This document shows, in pieces, positions 306-30,758 of a stretch of 42,517 nt of DNA (positions within the stretch are counted from its first letter, which is position 1; every line of letters begins with the position of its first letter). The stretch spans positions 1 through 42,517 of the forward strand of contig NZ_JAGSOH010000066.1 in NCBI RefSeq assembly GCF_018139625.1, given 5' to 3'. Position numbers and translations under genes: made by a program. Below the pieces are notes generated by a model that worked only from the letters and a program-made list of their open reading frames with translations, did no database searches and was not told the DNA's origin. This DNA comes from Actinospica acidithermotolerans (GTDB lineage: Bacteria; Actinomycetota; Actinomycetes; Streptomycetales; Catenulisporaceae).

Positions 306-3161
306 TCAGAGGATGCGCCAGAGATGGTCGGCGGTGCCGCTGTCGGCGTACTGCACGATCTGCGCCGAGTCGGCCGTGGACATGTTCGCGACGCCGAGCA
401 CCAGCCCGCTGTTGCGGTTCTGGATGCGGAGCCACGGGCCGCCGCCTGGCAGCAGGCGCCACAGGTGGTCGGCGGTGCCGTTGTCGTCGAACTGGACGAC
501 GGCCGCCGAGTCGAGCGTGGACATGCCCGACACGCCCATGACCTTGCCCGAGTTGAGGTTCCGGACCTTCCACCAGCCGCTTGGATCGCTCTCGAAGGTC
601 CACAGGTGGTCGGCGGTACCGTTGTCGTCGAACTGGACGACGTCGGCCGAGTCGAGCGTGGACATGTTCGCCACGCCGAGCACCAGGCCGCTGTTCCGGT
701 TCATGATGCGGACCGGGCCGTCCGGTATCAGCGTCCAGAGGTGGTCGGCGGTGCCGTTGTCGTCGAACTGGACGACGAGTGCCGAATCAGAGGTCGACAT
801 GTTCGCCACGCCGAGGACCTTGGCGCTGTTGGCGTTGCGGATGCGCATCGAGCCGTCGCCGTTGTCGATCAGGGTCCAGACGTGATCGAGTGTGCCGCTG
901 TCGGCGAACTGGACCACGTCGGCCGAGTCCGCCGTGGACATGGCCGATACCCCGAGTACGAGGCCGCTGTTCGCGTTGCGGATGCGGACGTTGCCATCGC
1001 CGTTGTCGATGAACTGCCAGAGGTGGTCGGCGGTGCCGTTGTCGTCGAACTGGACCACCTGCGCGCTGTCGTCCCAGGACATGCCGGACACGCCCATGAC
1101 CAGTCCGCTGTTGACGTTGCGCAGCCGGAACCAGCCCCCTGGGACGCTCCACGCGCCTCCGGACGAGGACGCCGCCGGGAACGCGGTGATCCGCAGCCGC
1201 GCCGCGCCCATGGGGATCAGCGTCACGTTCGTCGTCGAGGATGCGGCGAAGGGCCCTGGTTCGAGCGGCGTGACCGTGCTCTGATCGTCCGCGGTCCACG
1301 CCGCGAGTTGCGCGGCGGGCGCGGTGATGCTGACCGGTACGGTCTGCTGCGTGAACGGGCTCGCCGGGATCGAGCCGGTTGCGCCGTGGAATTCGAGCGC
1401 ACCGGCGGGGTTCGACGACGGCAGGTCGAGCGCGTAGTTCCACGGCGTGGTGGCGTGCACCTCGTACTCGGGGAACTCCGTATCGCCCGCGAACTGGACG
1501 TAGTTCTCGCCGATCTGCAGCGAGTAGTCCAGTGCTCCGTTGGAGACGGACACCGAGGAGTTGCCGGCCCACGTGGTGACCACCGGCGTCGAGGGCAGCT
1601 GGACGGTGACGGTGTCGCCGTTGCTCCAGGTCCGGGTGACGGATGTGTACGCAGGGCCTGCCGGCGCGCTGACGCTCTGCCCGTTCACCTTGATCGACGG
1701 GGATGCGCACCAGCCGGGAACGCGCAGGTAGAGCGGGAACGTCGCCGGGGCGGAGAGGGAGACCGTCAGGGTGACGGTATCCGTGAACGGATATCCGGTG
1801 TCCTCGGTGATCGTGATCGGCGCGGCGGCAGACCCCACCTTTGCGGTCACGGAGCAGGGTGCGTACATGGCGGCGCACAGCCCGTTGTCCGGGGTGGCGA
1901 GCCAGAGTTCCTCGGTGAAGTAGGGCCAGCCTTGACCGTAGTTGTGCGGGCAACAGCGGTACTGGTCCACGCCCGGCATGTACGCCTGCAAGGCGAACGT
2001 GTCGCTGAACTGCCCTTGTGTTTTGGGCGTATTCGACAGGTCGACGCTGTTGGCCGAGGTGACGTAGTGGGTTCCCTTGCCCCACGGGTCGAGGGCGGCG
2101 GGCAGCATGTTGAAGGCGAGTTGCTCGCACCGGTCCGCCCACACGGGGTCGCCGGTGAGCCGGGTCAGCAGCTCGTGGCTCGCCATCAGCTCGACGATGC
2201 CGCACGTCTCGAAGCCCTGCCGGGGATCGGTGTAGCCCGGCCGGCAGTTCTCGTCCCCGGCGAAGCCGCCACCCGGGAACTGCCCGTAGACGCCCATGAT
2301 CGACGCGTAGTCGGTATACGTGTCCTGAGTCATCGCGGACTGCCCGGAACGCTGCGCGTACACCGCCGGTTCGCGGAAGCCCTGGGCGAGATTGACGTTG
2401 TGCGGGGTGGGCAGATCGCCGAGCCAGTTCGCGCCATTGGCGTGCATCGTGTCGGCGAGGGTCAGCAGGAAGGCTTCGCCGGTGCGGTTGTAGAGCCAGA
2501 ACAGCACGTCGAGGCCGTCGGCGATCCGGTACGAGATCCAGCTGGAGGAGAACACCGAGCCCGGCTGTGCGTTCATATACCGGCAGAACCCGGTCATCGC
2601 GGTCAGCAGGCCCTGGTCGCCGGTGTACTCCTGGTGGCTGCGCAGCGCCTGGAGCAACGGCAGGTACGGCCAGAAGTCGGGGCCGCCGCCCAGGGACGTG
2701 CGCAGTCCGGTGGGTCCGAGGAAGCCGTCGGAAGCCTGCGTGGCGAGGATGCCCTCGATCCACGACGCCGTGTCCGACAACGTTGTCGCGTCCCGGGTGA
2801 CGTAGCCGAGGTCGCCGTAGCCGCGGAGCCAGTACGGCACCTCCTCCCAGCCGGCCTGCGCGGGATTGAGCCAGCCGGTGGCGGACTTGTCGAGGAAGTG
2901 CGAGACGTCCTGATACTTCCCGCACAGGCCGTCGAGCTGCAGCTGGAGCTGCCCGGCGAGCCAGCCCGAGGGGGTGACGGCGCCCGGCGGCAGCCGCAGA
3001 AACGCGGTGGGGGCCAGCGGTGCCGCGTTCGGCGAGTAGAGCCCGCCCGGCGCCGGGGCGACGCGGGCGGAGGCGGCGGACGCCCGCGGGACAGGGCCCG
3101 CGAAGAGCGCGGCCGCGGTCAGAGCGCCGCCGCGCAGGAGGGAACGACGGGAGAAGGCCAT
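306..3161 (-). CDS. Secreted GH127-type beta-L-arabinofuranosidase with ricin-like repeats
   Basis: Predicted to release beta-L-arabinofuranose from plant or glycoprotein glycans outside the cell. The start at 3161 is chosen because GGAG lies 7 bases upstream and it gives a clean twin-arginine signal (MAFSRRSLLRGG, cleavage near residue 29). The body (about 45-640) is a DUF1680/GH127 domain. It holds GDE near 304, the ETC pair (E318, C320) and the adjacent cysteines C403-C404, matching the Zn(Cys)3Glu site and cysteine nucleophile known for this family. Residues 675-951 are six units of about 46 residues with the motif QFDDNGTADHLW, a ricin/CBM13-like carbohydrate-binding array. Total 951 aa, long for the family because of this tail. 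Transcribed alone, with a palindrome just upstream. The family is clear; exact substrate is inferred. Confidence 0.9.
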   Translation of the reverse strand: MAFSRRSLLRGGALTAAALFAGPVPRASAASARVAPAPGGLYSPNAAPLAPTAFLRLPPGAVTPSGWLAGQLQLQLDGLCGKYQDVSHFLDKSATGWLNPAQAGWEEVPYWLRGYGDLGYVTRDATTLSDTASWIEGILATQASDGFLGPTGLRTSLGGGPDFWPYLPLLQALRSHQEYTGDQGLLTAMTGFCRYMNAQPGSVFSSSWISYRIADGLDVLFWLYNRTGEAFLLTLADTMHANGANWLGDLPTPHNVNLAQGFREPAVYAQRSGQSAMTQDTYTDYASIMGVYGQFPGGGFAGDENCRPGYTDPRQGFETCGIVELMASHELLTRLTGDPVWADRCEQLAFNMLPAALDPWGKGTHYVTSANSVDLSNTPKTQGQFSDTFALQAYMPGVDQYRCCPHNYGQGWPYFTEELWLATPDNGLCAAMYAPCSVTAKVGSAAAPITITEDTGYPFTDTVTLTVSLSAPATFPLYLRVPGWCASPSIKVNGQSVSAPAGPAYTSVTRTWSNGDTVTVQLPSTPVVTTWAGNSSVSVSNGALDYSLQIGENYVQFAGDTEFPEYEVHATTPWNYALDLPSSNPAGALEFHGATGSIPASPFTQQTVPVSITAPAAQLAAWTADDQSTVTPLEPGPFAASSTTNVTLIPMGAARLRITAFPAASSSGGAWSVPGGWFRLRNVNSGLVMGVSGMSWDDSAQVVQFDDNGTADHLWQFIDNGDGNVRIRNANSGLVLGVSAMSTADSADVVQFADSGTLDHVWTLIDNGDGSMRIRNANSAKVLGVANMSTSDSALVVQFDDNGTADHLWTLIPDGPVRIMNRNSGLVLGVANMSTLDSADVVQFDDNGTADHLWTFESDPSGWWKVRNLNSGKVMGVSGMSTLDSAAVVQFDDNGTADHLWRLLPGGGPWLRIQNRNSGLVLGVANMSTADSAQIVQYADSGTADHLWRIL
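309..1139 (-). repeat. Six tandem ricin-type coding repeats, about 138-141 bp each
   Basis: The 3' third of the GH127 gene is six in-frame repeats. A block reading aggtggtcggcggtgccg recurs almost unchanged near 321, 462, 603, 741 and 1020, with a diverged copy near 881. DNA identity exceeds what the shared protein motif alone requires, pointing to recent duplication or homogenisation. Confidence 0.85.
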
Positions 3162-26173: not shown

Positions 26174-27376
26174 TCAGCGGAAGATGCCGGTGTGGCCGAG
26201 TGAGTAGCGGCCGGGCTGCGGGTAGACGCACAGTCCGTGCGGTCCCTGGCCCACCGGGATGCGGGCGATCAGGTGGCCGTCGGTGGTGGAGATGGCGTAG
26301 ACCTCGGCGTTGTAGCGCCCCGAGAGCCACAGCACCTTGCCGTCCGCGGAGATCCCGCCCATGTCCGGGCTCCCGCCGCCGGGAATGCGCCACTTCACGC
26401 GGACGGCGTTCGTGGCGAAGTCCAGGACGCTGATCGAGCCCTCGCCGCGGTTGCTGATGTACAGGTCCTTTGAATCGCGGCTGACGTACAGGCCGTGCGC
26501 CCCGGCCCCGGTGGGGATGAACCCGGTGACCTTGAACCGGTCGCCGTCGAGCGTCCACACTCCGTTGGCGGTCATGTCCGCGACGTACCAGACGCTGCCG
26601 TCCGGGGAGATCTTCACGTCCTGCGGCATCGCGCCGTGGCCCAGATCCACCACCCCGAGCAGGGTGCGCTTGGCGGTGTCGACCTTCAGCAGCTGGCCGC
26701 TGAACTCGCACGAGGCGATGAAGTAGCTGCCGTCCGGGGAGAAGTCGACGTGGTTGACGCCCGCGCACGGCACATCGAGCGTGTCCTGGACCGCCATGGT
26801 GTGCGGGTCCCGGAAGACGATCTGCCGGTCGGCCTCGGCCATCACCATCGCGGAGCGGCCGTCCGGGGTGAAGTAGAGGTTGTACGGGTCGTGCACCGCC
26901 ACCGGCGTGCCGAACCGGCCGGTGGCCGGGTCGATCGGGGTCAGCGAGTTGCCCTGGTCGTTGTTCACCCACAGCATCTTCAGGTCCCAGCCGGGCACGA
27001 CGTGCTGCGGCTGCTCGCCCACCTCGACGGTGCGCACGACCTTGTAGGTGGCCGGGTCGATCACGCTGACGGTGTTCGACTCGGTGTTCGGGACGTACAC
27101 GAAGCTCGGGTCGTTCTTCACCACCGGCGACAGCTCGTTCGGCCGGTCCGCGGCGTACAGGTCCTTCGGGTCGTACTCCGGCATGCCGGACAACGCACCG
27201 ACCCGCATCCGAACACCGCCCGCACCCGCATCGGCGCCCGCACCCTGCGACGGTTTCGCCGCGGCGGCGGAGGCGGTCGGACGCGGCGCACCGCCGGCGC
27301 AGGAGGCGCACGCCACGGCCAGGGCCGCGACCGCGCCGGCACCGAGAAGGGATCGACGACGTGTGCTGGTCTTCAC
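26174..27376 (-). CDS. Tat lipoprotein with YVTN/NHL-type beta-propeller
   Basis: A 400-aa surface protein. GTG 27376 (KTSTRRRSLLGAG) has GGAG 7 bases upstream. A twin-arginine motif is followed by a lipobox-like LAVAC/CASC, so a lipid-anchored extracellular protein is likely. After an alanine-rich linker come about seven blade repeats (from residue 85) with the pattern V.D..T......I..G..P: FVYVPNTESNTVSVIDPATYKV, then LYISNRGEGSISVLDFATN (each shown only in part) and the final VGQGPHGLCVYPQPG. The propeller most likely binds protein or sugar; no catalytic residues are evident. Convergent with the esterase gene. Confidence 0.85.
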   Translation of the reverse strand: MKTSTRRRSLLGAGAVAALAVACASCAGGAPRPTASAAAAKPSQGAGADAGAGGVRMRVGALSGMPEYDPKDLYAADRPNELSPVVKNDPSFVYVPNTESNTVSVIDPATYKVVRTVEVGEQPQHVVPGWDLKMLWVNNDQGNSLTPIDPATGRFGTPVAVHDPYNLYFTPDGRSAMVMAEADRQIVFRDPHTMAVQDTLDVPCAGVNHVDFSPDGSYFIASCEFSGQLLKVDTAKRTLLGVVDLGHGAMPQDVKISPDGSVWYVADMTANGVWTLDGDRFKVTGFIPTGAGAHGLYVSRDSKDLYISNRGEGSISVLDFATNAVRVKWRIPGGGSPDMGGISADGKVLWLSGRYNAEVYAISTTDGHLIARIPVGQGPHGLCVYPQPGRYSLGHTGIFR

Positions 27377-27618
27377 CGCGCGGCTCCGATCTGCGTTCGA
27401 GGGCGCCACCACCGGACGGTCCGGCCGGCGACACCACTCGCGGCGAGAGATTCGCCGAATGGATTGCACAGGGCACGCCGTTCCGCCGCCGACCGCCGAC
27501 AGCCCGGCAGGGCAGCGAGCGCCCCCGGCCGAGACGGGGGAAATCCGGGCAGATCGCGCATGTCCACAGGCCGAGCCTAGGCGACGGCGAGCCGGCCCGG
27601 CCGCGCCTCCCATCCGAC

Positions 27619-27637
27619 CGGGTGAGCCTCTCACCCG
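27619..27637. promoter_or_regulatory. Palindrome CGGGTGAG-CCT-CTCACCCG
   Basis: Perfect 8-bp arms with a 3-bp spacer, about 245 bases upstream of the propeller lipoprotein start. The form suits a dimeric regulator. No adjacent regulator gene is present. Confidence 0.45.
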
Positions 27638-27783
27638 TACGCAGCAAGTCGGACCGTTCACGTCGATTGCACTACGCAAGGATGGAAGGCCGAGCCTCGG
27701 CCGCACCGGCGCAGGCGGCGAACACAGGAATCGTCCGCGCGGGGCTCGCCGCGCGGCACCGCACAAGTCGTAGGCATGACGAC

Positions 27784-27816
27784 GCCGGCCCGGGCCCACC
27801 GGGGGCCCGGGCCGGC
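27784..27816 (-). terminator. Hairpin terminator after the DEAD-box helicase
   Basis: Perfect 14-bp GC stem (GCCGGCCCGGGCCC and complement) with loop ACCGG, 14 bases past the helicase stop. No T run. Confidence 0.75.
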
Positions 27817-27830
27817 TGTTCGCGCTCCTG

Positions 27831-29354
27831 CTATATGACGGCGGTGTAACCCGTGGGCGCGCCCGCGCGGGAGGCCGTGGCAGGACGGCTGGTGCGGGGG
27901 CGGCGGTTGCGGCCGCGTCCGGCGGAATCGTTGCGGCGGGGACGCTCCGCCACCGGGTCGGCCACCACCACTGCCGTGCCTGTCGGTACCCGGGCACCGG
28001 TGATGCGCGCGAGTTCCTCGTCCGTGGAGTGCACGGAGACCGAATTGGGGGCAAGTGCGGCGGCAGACATCATCCGGCTCATCTCACGGCGCTGGCCGGG
28101 CAAGACCAGGGTGACGACCGTACCGGACTCGCCGGCCCTGGCGGTGCGCCCGCCGCGGTGCAGGTAGTCCTTGTGGTCGGCCGGCGGGTCGATGTTGACG
28201 ACCAGGTCCAGCCCGTCGATGTGGATCCCGCGGGCCGCGACATTGGTCGCGATCAGCGCCGTCACCTGGCCCTGACGGAACTGCTCCAGGGTGCGCGTGC
28301 GCTGCGGCTGCGACTTGCCGCCGTGCAGCGCGGCCGCCTTCACGCCGTTCGCAAGCAGGTCGCGCACCAGCCGGTCGGCGCCGTGCTTGGTCTCGGTGAA
28401 CATGATCACTCCGCCCTGGCGGGAGGCGATGTGCGCGATGACGTCGTTCTTATCGTGGTTCTGCACGTGCAGCAGGTGGTGCTCCATCGTGCTGACGGTC
28501 GCGGCCGTGGGGTCCACCGAGTGCACCACCGGGTCGTTGAGGAACTGCCGTACCAGCTGGTCGACGTTGCGGTCCAACGTGGCGGAGAAGAGCATCGTCT
28601 GCCCGCCGTCGGCGACCTGCTTGAGCAGCGCGGTGACCTGCGGGAGGAAGCCCATGTCGGCCATCTGGTCGGCCTCGTCGATCACGGTCACGGCCACGGC
28701 GTCCAACCGGCACTCGCCGCGCTGGATCAGGTCTCTGAGCCGGCCGGGCGTGGCGATGACGACCTCCGCGCCGCGGCCGAGCGCCATCGCCTGACGGCCG
28801 ATCGACATCCCGCCCACCACCGTCGCCAGCCGCAGCTGCACCGCCTGGGCGTACGGCGTGAGCGCCTCGGTGACCTGCTGCGCGAGCTCCCGGGTGGGAA
28901 CGAGCACCAGCGCCAGCGGCCGGCGCGGCTGCGCGCGCCGGCCCGCGGTGCGCCCCAGCAGCGCGAGGCCGAACGCGAGAGTCTTGCCGGAGCCGGTGCG
29001 GCCGCGGCCGAGCACGTCCCGGCCGGCCAGGGTGTTCGGCAGCGTCGCAGCCTGGATCGGGAAGGGCGAGGTCACGCCCTGCCGGGTCAGCATCGCCAGC
29101 AGGGCCTTAGGCATGTCCAGTTCGGCGAACGACTCCGCCGCCGGCAGGGCGGGGGCCACGGTGACCGGCAGAGCGAACTCGGTCCGCCCCGCAGACCCCT
29201 GACGGGCGCTCGCCCCGGACGTGCGCTGACCGCCGCCGGAACGCGAGCCGTAGGCCGAACCGCCCGAGCGGGCACCGCGGCCGGCGCCGGAGCGCGCACC
29301 CGCGGCGGAACGGTCGTTGGGATGCTGATATGACGAACGACTGGAGCGATTCAT
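27831..29354 (-). CDS. DEAD-box RNA helicase
   Basis: ATP-dependent RNA unwinding enzyme of 507 aa, likely active in ribosome assembly or mRNA turnover, especially in the cold. ATG 29354 has AGGAAGG 8 bases upstream. A Gly/Ser/Arg-rich RNA-binding N-terminus (1-60) precedes the core. Q motif FPIQAATLP; motif I GRTGSGKT (118-125); Ia PTRELAQQ; Ib TPGRL; II DEAD (226-229); III SAT; IV VIMFTETK; V ATNVAARGIHI; VI HRGGRTARAG. All motifs are intact. The basic C-terminal tail (RPRRNDSAGRGRNRR) is another RNA-binding extension. A 500-base upstream non-coding stretch and the neighbouring csp gene suggest joint cold-shock control. Confidence 0.93.
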   Translation of the reverse strand: MNRSSRSSYQHPNDRSAAGARSGAGRGARSGGSAYGSRSGGGQRTSGASARQGSAGRTEFALPVTVAPALPAAESFAELDMPKALLAMLTRQGVTSPFPIQAATLPNTLAGRDVLGRGRTGSGKTLAFGLALLGRTAGRRAQPRRPLALVLVPTRELAQQVTEALTPYAQAVQLRLATVVGGMSIGRQAMALGRGAEVVIATPGRLRDLIQRGECRLDAVAVTVIDEADQMADMGFLPQVTALLKQVADGGQTMLFSATLDRNVDQLVRQFLNDPVVHSVDPTAATVSTMEHHLLHVQNHDKNDVIAHIASRQGGVIMFTETKHGADRLVRDLLANGVKAAALHGGKSQPQRTRTLEQFRQGQVTALIATNVAARGIHIDGLDLVVNIDPPADHKDYLHRGGRTARAGESGTVVTLVLPGQRREMSRMMSAAALAPNSVSVHSTDEELARITGARVPTGTAVVVADPVAERPRRNDSAGRGRNRRPRTSRPATASRAGAPTGYTAVI

Positions 29355-29854: not shown

Positions 29855-30058
29855 TTAGAGCGGACGAATGTTCTCGGCCTGCGGGCCCTTCTGGCCCTGC
29901 GCGACGTCGAACTCGACCTTCTGGCCCTCGAGCAGCTCACGGAAGCCGTTGGCGTTGATGTTCGAGTAGTGGGCGAAGACGTCCGGGCCGCCGCCGTCCT
30001 GCTCGATGAAGCCGAAGCCCTTTTCCGCGTTGAACCACTTCACAGTGCCACTTGTCAT
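29855..30058 (-). CDS. cspA: CspA-family cold-shock protein
   Basis: A 67-aa single-stranded nucleic acid binding protein acting as RNA chaperone or antiterminator. The OB fold carries both RNP motifs: KGFGFIEQ (RNP1, about 13-20) and DVFAHYSNI (RNP2, about 26-34). Ends [10 protein letters not shown] as in actinobacterial Csps. ATG 30058 follows AAGGAG with 8 bases between. It is monocistronic, bounded by a strong terminator downstream and an unusual leader upstream that contains a hairpin with a T run. The symbol reflects family membership; actinomycetes carry several paralogues and this one cannot be assigned more precisely. Confidence 0.96.
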
Positions 30059-30144
30059 AAAAAAATCTCCTTCAGGGGCTGACCGGCACCCGCCATGCGC
30101 GGGGCCGCGTCGCCGCGATGATGACCCACCCGGAGAGGACCGGG

Positions 30145-30181
30145 AAACAAAAATGCGCCTGCATCACAACCTGCAGGCGCA
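30145..30181 (-). promoter_or_regulatory. Terminator-like attenuator in the csp leader
   Basis: Read on the csp strand, TGCGCCTGCA and TGCAGGCGCA form a 10-bp stem with loop GGTTGTGA, followed at once by TTTTTGTTT. This is a textbook intrinsic terminator lying 87 bases before the csp ATG and in the csp sense direction. A second small hairpin (CCCGG/CCGGG, 30129-30144) follows. A 50-codon frame from ATG 30224 (GGAG 7 bases upstream) runs through the hairpin and stops at 30072. It may control csp by attenuation or end a separate short RNA. Confidence 0.6.
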
Positions 30182-30758
30182 CACAAAAGTTCATGGGAAC
30201 CACAACTGCAACTGCGTTGAGCATAGCAGGTCTCCGGCCGTTTGGGCGAAGCACGCGCGCGCTGCACGCAATTCCGCTGCTCCAGCGGCTGCGGAATCCG
30301 CGGCGGGACGGGGGCCTGCCCCGGCGGTAGACCACACATCGCGCCTCAGTGGAGTAGTATGGACGGTACCGGCAGTCACCATTCGCAAGGCGCCTCTCCG
30401 GTGCCCGTGCGCCGGTCGATCGGCAACCGCGCCTGAGGGGCCCGGATCGGCGGACCGCCTCCATCTCGAAGCTCCCGGCTTATCAAAGAGCCGATATCAA
30501 GCGGCTTTTTCACAGTCGCTCGTCCCCGGCGGTCCTCCGCGCATCCCGGCCCGCCGCCAACAAGAAACCGCCGCCACCCCGTAACTCATCTCGCCGCACC
30601 AGCGAGGCAGGTGGCAGCAGGGCCACGCATCCCGGAGCCCTCGATCCCGGCGAACTCGGCCGCGGCGCAGCGCAAACGGATGCGCGGCGACCCAACTTGT
30701 CAGGGCACCCGCAGAAGCGGATCCGGCACATGGCCACACATATACGTAAACGAAGAGG
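30182..30758. other. Non-coding stretch between csp leader and STAS gene
   Basis: About 575 bases without a convincing gene. It holds a possible csp -10 box (TATGCT on the minus strand, 30220-30225), a 25-codon plus-strand frame at 30359-30436 preceded by GGAG, and a plus-strand terminator at 30485-30510. Together these suggest a short plus-strand transcript. Confidence 0.4.
30485..30510 (+). terminator. Orphan intrinsic terminator with T run
   Basis: AAAGAGCCG and CGGCTTTTT pair (9 bp, one G-T) around loop ATATCAAG, ending in T residues. No recognised plus-strand gene lies upstream; it implies a small RNA or short-peptide transcript from about 30240-30480. Confidence 0.5.

Follow-up and report, generated by a model that had tools for sequence, protein, structure and literature searches.

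RESULTS AND DISCUSSION

The csp locus and its surroundings

The window (the whole stretch of 42,517 nucleotides of Actinospica acidithermotolerans DNA that was analysed, and to which all coordinates refer) encodes on its minus strand a cold-shock protein, Csp, the ATG start codon of which is located at 30058. The gene, its ribosome-binding site, its leader and its promoter are positioned as follows.

29855 to 30058, minus strand: csp, cold-shock protein of 67 aa (PF00313, E value 1.1e-30)
30067 to 30072, minus strand: Shine-Dalgarno of csp, AAGGAG (from the sequence)
30059 to 30212, minus strand: csp leader RNA (predicted start at approximately 30212; match to model R1 at 3.6e-28; fold z of -3.26)
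30220 to 30228, minus strand: extended -10 promoter element TGCTATGCT

Directly downstream of csp lies a gene for a DEAD-box RNA helicase (PF00270 and PF00271; 27831 to 29645, minus strand), and the gap between the two genes contains a GC-rich hairpin (approximately 29823 to 29785) that has no U run and remains short of d>0 in the terminator score applied below. A YncE-like beta-propeller protein (PF21783) is encoded at 26174 to 28054 on the minus strand; as its open reading frame overlaps the end of that of the helicase, the true start of this protein is probably located further in.

Spread of the leader and its link to csp

Of 89 leaders extracted (90 until the leader L032 was skipped), 50 make up alignment A1, and model R1 was built from these 50 rows, one of which is the window leader itself. 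Out of a sample of 394 genomes from the class, 103 contained R1 matches at an E value of ≤0.01, representing 32 of 138 genera. Across 15 genomes, all but one of which had been picked for holding matches, each of the 42 matches at this threshold was located directly upstream of a cold-shock-domain gene, as was 1 of 7 weaker matches (E value up to 1). The leader was carried by 42 of the 92 strong cold-shock-domain genes in these genomes (92 of 121 rows, above about 91 bits) and by one of five in the window's own genome. A second copy in the latter genome, L032, looks related by eye but scores only 16.9 bits and was unreported in the R1 genome search. A weak match in L139 (1713 to 1856, minus strand, G000:C38; 20.6 bits, E value 0.046), with no csp start after it, is probably due to chance.

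The 5' element of the leader, expressed as an exact pattern, was found in at least 120 stretches of the named genomes, and a csp start followed within 330 nt in 113 of the 120 matches listed, the other seven being cut off by the end of the stretch. The genera among the matches listed include Streptomyces, Kitasatospora, Streptacidiphilus, Actinacidiphila and Nonomuraea, and further Microbispora, Actinomadura, Actinoallomurus, Saccharopolyspora and Actinopolymorpha. A DNA query composed of the leader and the start of csp found matches in 99 of 99 genomes from the window's order, its own genome among them, a result which is alone no proof of leader conservation because the query includes csp coding sequence; among the matches listed, many of the best begin at approximately 30212 to 30214.

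Of 169 distinct csp upstream stretches, seven were left out (L006+3005, L031, L034, L035, L036 and L096, which are without the element, and L138, in which it is decayed), yielding 162 leaders with the 5' element and, from these, 62 non-redundant representatives of <80% identity. Terminator scores were computed for 57 of the latter, the short leaders L060, L186, L021, L181 and L187 being left out, and the swap tests of the long-range pairings P1 and P5 (see below) used 59, as L129 and L135 are without the P1 3' strand and L145 is without an anchor. Taken as a comparison of sequences, these data leave next to no doubt that the csp leader RNA is conserved in many actinobacteria.

The promoter and the predicted transcription start

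The motif TGNTANNNT was present in 60 of the 62 non-redundant leaders (best of the places within approximately 22 nt) and ended 6 to 8 nt before the conserved GTTGC start in 58 of them; no conserved -35 element was found among the csp leaders compared. From the extended -10 element at 30228 to 30220, the start of the message is predicted at approximately 30212. The initial annotation had held that transcripts beginning downstream of 30145 would speak against a hairpin in the leader; such transcripts appear unlikely, given how widely TGNTANNNT occurs at the correct spacing from GTTGC.

RbpA favors extended -10 promoters. The promoter type of the csp leaders fits what passages of PMC6344877 report for SCO3731 and SCO4505, namely, that they are among the genes modelled best with HrdB-RbpA.

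A conserved terminator-like hairpin

The leader contains two adjoining elements.

30153 to 30182, minus strand: hp1, terminator-like hairpin
30145 to 30152, minus strand: U-rich tract TTTTGTTT after hp1 (terminator score d of 33)

A hairpin followed by a T run had been noted here from the sequence alone, and both are indeed present, the stem spanning 30182 to 30153 and TTTTGTTT extending to 30145, at a distance of 87 bases from the csp ATG. The hp1 stem is composed of 10 Watson-Crick pairs and a closing G-U pair, and this GC-rich hairpin with a U run directly after it has the shape of an intrinsic terminator. A loose consensus scan of 10 kb returned one terminator-like site, against 3.1 ± 1.9 in shuffles, and the presence of a hairpin alone, thus, proves nothing. 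A stricter score, d, of the d'Aubenton-Carafa form, was applied instead, and hp1 represents the sole site with d>0 on either strand of the 42.5-kb window. Among the 57 non-redundant hairpin-length leaders, d>0 was reached in 32, compared to 14 of 1,140 dinucleotide shuffles (32 of 62 leaders once the five short ones without hp1 are counted), and d>-20 was reached in 44, compared to 93 of 1,140 shuffles. These figures derive from a maximum-score search, run identically on the shuffles, which replaced a cruder hairpin picker that had given d>0 in 26 of 62 leaders. The 3' end of hp1 fell at an offset of 52 to 63 in 42 of the 44 leaders with d>-20.

In these same 44 leaders, chosen by d>-20 for both the arm-swap and the antiterminator tests, the native arms of hp1 pair at -17.9 kcal/mol compared to -12.5 kcal/mol for arms swapped between leaders (z of -11.3; native better in 5,000 of 5,000 swaps, i.e., 0/5,000 as good). 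An alignment of csp leaders, inspected for paired stem changes and a kept T run as had been suggested at the outset, thus gave a positive outcome, the arms covarying and the T run being present in many relatives. The 3' flanks of the csp genes themselves reached d>0 in 33 of 61 cases (longer stretches than the leaders, scanned without shuffles), by which measure hp1 is as terminator-like as the ends of csp genes. Twenty-five of the 57 hairpin-length leaders had d≤0, two of them without any scoring hairpin; within the window's own genus (G002), L086 is without a scoring site and L095 has a d of -59, neither having the U run. Sequence comparison establishes hp1 as a covarying terminator-like hairpin conserved in csp leaders, while the odds that it terminates transcription in vivo are judged to be even or slightly better.

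The proposed upstream reading frame

The initial annotation further described a 50-codon reading frame through hp1 and suggested that ribosome movement upon it could decide read-through. This frame does run from an ATG at 30224 to a stop at 30072, overlapping hp1 and ending 14 bases before csp, and it forms part of an open frame which extends back to 30464. The proposed start codon, however, shares its A with the -10 hexamer, and an ATG at this place was found in 2 of the 62 non-redundant leaders, one being that of the window itself, and in 2 of all 162. Among the 62, the frame stays open in 35, compared to 28 and 37 for the other two frames; in shuffles it is open in 1,063 of 3,100 cases. An in-frame ATG at 30194 would give a shorter, 40-codon version inside the predicted transcript; 18 of the 62 leaders have an ATG at this place, from which 3 to 46 codons are open, and none of the 18 has a purine-rich ribosome site ahead of it.

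The upstream frame was consequently rejected as a feature, on account of its start codon within the -10 hexamer, its rarity in relatives, an openness no better than that of other frames, and the varied lengths and absent ribosome site of the 30194 version; a small upstream gene in the csp leader is probably not real. Leader-peptide attenuation, whereby ribosomes on the 50-codon frame would decide termination at hp1, may draw on the overlap of the frame with hp1, its end close to csp and the fact that the 40-codon version would be transcribed. It is characterized by a transcribed and conserved leader reading frame over the terminator, and none was found over hp1 in the 62 leaders. Set against the counts given above for both start codons and for frame openness, this mechanism is extremely improbable, and the suggested role of ribosome movement is left without support.

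A probable larger fold around hp1

Beyond hp1, the following elements are proposed.

30200 to 30212, minus strand: P1 5' strand GTTGCAGTTGTGG (RNAalifold on 50 leaders; pair counts)
30109 to 30121, minus strand: P1 3' strand TCATCGCGGCGAC (RNAalifold, pair counts and minimum free energy [MFE] fold)
30129 to 30144, minus strand: hp2 hairpin, CCCGG..CCGGG (MFE fold; by eye in many relatives)
30085 to 30107, minus strand: P4 hairpin (pair changes on both sides; MFE fold)
30125 to 30127, minus strand: possible P5 5' strand, GGG (pseudoknot, tentative; swap tests)
30075 to 30078, minus strand: possible P5 3' strand, CCCC (tentative; swap tests)

Applied to A1, RNAalifold returned, unprompted, a long-range helix P1 between the 5'-end sequence GUUGCAGUUGUGG and UCAUCGCGGCGAC, in addition to the P4 hairpin; P1 would enclose both hp1 and hp2. 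Of 550 P1 cells, 97.8% are paired. Eight of its 11 pairs vary on one side only and one is changed on both (G-U to U-A); doubly changed cells number 7 compared to 1.7 in shuffles, while pairs changed on both sides (1 compared to 0.9) show no excess. When slid by three columns, 84 to 87% of P1 is still paired, and the covariation score at +3 columns is 0.116 compared to 0.103 in place. The P1 swap test was not significant (z of -1.52, 327/5,000; z of -1.28 in a second test) because the 5' strand hardly varies. In P4, 8 of 9 pairs have changed on both sides, and comparison of the leader sequences thereby demonstrates this hairpin.

Folded from 30212, the window leader forms P1, hp1, hp2 and P4 with a z of -3.26, 0 of 200 shuffles being as stable, whereas a fold started at 30235 is without P1. 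When the window fold is extended by 40 nt of coding sequence, the predicted probabilities of its outer P1 pairs are 0.18 to 0.26 at 4 to 20°C and 0.08 at 37°C. A GYRRY partner for P1 was present in 53 of 55 anchored leaders starting with GTTGC, a loose count since the anchor search favored the pattern, 20-odd anchors were set by hand and GCGGC in GCGGCGAC also passes; P1 was, therefore, judged on RNAalifold, the pair counts and the fold of the window leader. From these predictions, it is likely that P1 forms. The leader hairpin of the initial annotation is borne out; the predicted P1-closed structure around it had gone unseen.

P5 would join the G run that precedes the P1 3' strand to the C run that precedes the Shine-Dalgarno and, with P1, make an H-type pseudoknot. 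Native pairings exceeded swapped ones in the 59 leaders (z of -2.57, 25/5,000) and in a second test (z of -2.25, 128/10,000, n = 85), for which usable anchors were available in 76 of 113 named leaders; two control pairings gave no effect (z of 0.58 and 0.53). The effect was lost in the 42 leaders without GGGG or CCCC (z of -0.78, 2,189/10,000). Background-corrected column covariation in 129 leaders mainly reflected how the leader classes differ from one another; pairs of P4 and of hp1 were prominent, and P5 pairs were absent from the 60 best. A P5 pseudoknot beside the Shine-Dalgarno is, on these sequence data, proposed tentatively, its chances lying somewhat below even.

The promoter at one end and hp1 at the other would allow the stretch from 30212 to approximately 30146 to be read as a separate, trans-acting small RNA of approximately 67 nt, with csp transcribed from another promoter. 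This is highly unlikely, given that the element stands directly upstream of a cold-shock-domain gene in all 42 matches at an E value of ≤0.01 and that P4 and the P1 3' strand are conserved between hp1 and csp in most leaders.

Modular variation among leader classes

By eye, leaders such as L021, L029, L044, L045, L058, L078 and L093 are without hp1 and have a U-rich stretch where it would be, L060 has lost both hp1 and the U run, and L181 to L185 and L187 seemingly possess neither hp1 nor hp2. Another class (L129 to L138 and L180) keeps hp1, the U run and hp2 and has dropped the P1 3' strand and P4, again by eye. GTTGCAG is decayed in 3 of the 11 leaders of this class (L131, L132 and L138), as would be expected if it pairs with the lost P1 3' strand. 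The csp leader is, to judge from these alignments, modular, and the window copy has both modules. The Streptomyces csp leaders L181 to L187, of 100 to 112 nt, carry the 5' element, the P1 3' strand and a P4-like hairpin and, by eye, no hp1; nature thereby supplies a set of controls for judging what the hairpin does.

Such variation bears on whether the leader might act on translation only. In that case hp1 and the U run would be nonterminating, hp1 acting as a structural arm and the U run as a U-rich, single-stranded linker within the P1-closed fold; the linker would perhaps be a Csp binding site, and the fold would control ribosome access or mRNA stability. The leaders which keep a U-rich stretch without hp1 agree with this, as does the report, in passages of PMC6009599, that six csp mRNAs of S. 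coelicolor, as a csp group, gain in translation upon heat shock while their transcripts fall, the basis of which is given as unknown and the molecular basis of joint translational csp control as little known. The U run directly after a covarying hairpin in 44 of 57 hairpin-length leaders (d>-20) and the class that keeps hp1, the U run and hp2 without the P1 3' strand and P4 argue against it, and a purely translational leader is considered unlikely.

Temperature and antitermination

The leader of E. coli cspA refolds in the cold, opening the Shine-Dalgarno. The csp leader described here, being long, structured and equipped with a long-range helix, could likewise be a cold-sensing RNA. In nested models, from which pseudoknots are excluded, the Shine-Dalgarno of the window is predicted to be unpaired with a probability of 0.28 at 10°C and of 0.43 at 37°C; the average over 59 leaders is 0.35 at both temperatures. 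Nested predictions from 4 to 55°C gave no cold-opening of the Shine-Dalgarno, which speaks against an RNA thermometer. The cspA thermoregulator family RF01766, in which a cold-shock-domain gene likewise has a long, structured leader, scored 12.4 bits, below its gathering score of 78, and this weak match (30084 to 30006) covers mostly csp coding sequence; it differs further in that no cold-opening is predicted (nested model) for the window leader. A cold-sensing leader of the cspA kind is, thus, very unlikely. In a survey of C. glutamicum, the Rfam cspA motif is assigned to cg0215 (PMC4046766).

The predicted formation of hp1 is at least 0.96 from 4 to 55°C. Among upstream partners, an antiterminator duplex within 3 kcal/mol of hp1 was found in 0 of 44 leaders, and a mutually exclusive antiterminator using the hp1 5' arm, as in attenuators, in none of them. 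With no antiterminator, a stable hp1 and no cold-opening, the RNA alone fails to explain control in these models, and read-through would, in consequence, be set by a trans factor. Precedent for such a factor is provided by passages of PMC9765468, according to which intrinsic termination in E. coli is attenuated by CspD, and the same effect is cited for CspA, CspC and CspE at the metY-rpsO terminator.

A working model for csp control

The explanation which we favor, with a probability of approximately 0.48, is a csp-specific cis-regulatory leader in which partial termination, set by a trans factor that is perhaps Csp, is combined with translational control. The joint translational control of six csp mRNAs in S. 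coelicolor (PMC6009599) would be in line with this explanation too. The leader and its promoter are demonstrated by the sequence comparison; we infer partial termination, its regulation, the involvement of Csp and translational control from the arrangement of the elements. Transcription would start at approximately 30212 from the extended -10 promoter, and RNA polymerase would soon make hp1 and the U run, with the covarying shape of an intrinsic terminator. Part of the transcripts would probably stop at the U run, giving an RNA of approximately 67 nt. Read-through would add the P1 3' strand, which is presumed to pair with the 5' end and so enclose hp1 and hp2; this closure would set P4, and perhaps the P5 pseudoknot, beside the csp Shine-Dalgarno as a likely second, translational control. 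If read-through is set by a trans factor, Csp is the best candidate, which would amount to autogenous control. By analogy with E. coli, Csp may be this factor, an assignment that is rather doubtful, and an arrangement in which a long-range P1/P5 pseudoknot holds the terminator in its loop and gates ribosome entry, with Csp melting the terminator, is improbable. The leader may, by these means, set the amount of cold-shock protein. As regards the initial annotation as a whole, its conserved terminator-like csp leader hairpin stands and leader-type regulation is likely, whereas the upstream frame and ribosome movement are not sustained.

Relation to known systems

No Rfam 15 family reached its gathering score for the window or for eight relatives, and no description of this csp leader was recognised among the results of searches of open-licence PMC papers; it is in these two senses that the leader is termed undescribed. 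A Term-seq study of S. griseus reports 79 premature transcription units, and its main text makes no mention of csp or cold (PMC8914203); the passages of PMC4895711 on cold shock, leaders and terminators name no csp leader.

The Csp-sensitive terminators of E. coli (the internal terminator of metY-rpsO, and that of SgrS with CspD) likewise consist of a GC-rich hairpin and U residues and operate in cells whose Csp proteins are known to weaken terminators, as described in parts of PMC9765468. In contrast to these, hp1 belongs to csp's own leader and is enclosed by a predicted long-range helix, and the action of Csp upon it is putative. Transcription attenuators with alternative antiterminators also place a terminator-like hairpin between promoter and gene; the csp leader differs in having no upstream antiterminator duplex within 3 kcal/mol (0/44). 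The Actino-pnp motif, RF01688, is presumably the leader of pnp. It is, from the account in PMC2864571, similarly a conserved cis-regulatory leader of an actinobacterial RNA-metabolism gene, but it belongs to another gene, and the window has no Rfam match at the gathering score. The csp leader would, thus, appear to work like known csp leaders and Csp-sensitive terminators, while not displaying in full the defining features of any family tested.

Csp proteins are abundant RNA chaperones, and a conserved csp-specific leader with defined helices offers a concrete cis element for the study of csp control, as well as a natural case in which the target of a terminator-weakening protein family may be a terminator-like hairpin on the messenger that encodes it. 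Annotation would benefit from the promoter and structure boundaries, which could also serve as the basis of a new Rfam family. Were the P1/P5 pseudoknot reading true, a single cis element would account for the joint control of csp genes in Streptomyces, with Csp reading its own leader across the actinobacterial class.

Other csp leaders

Two csp genes in the window's own genome (L034 and L035, on G000:C77 and C199) have a different, short leader directly upstream, the ends of which look complementary by eye immediately ahead of the Shine-Dalgarno (ATGGAACG with CGTTCCAT in L034 and ATGGAGTG with CGCTCCAT in L035). The layout of L096 is similar, and these short leaders perhaps represent a second csp leader type. 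In L006, a further csp gene (near 2870 to 3005, plus strand, start at 3005) is located approximately 1.3 kb downstream of the first; its leader contains a partial 5' element (score of 13 of a possible 19) and is perhaps a decayed or divergent copy.
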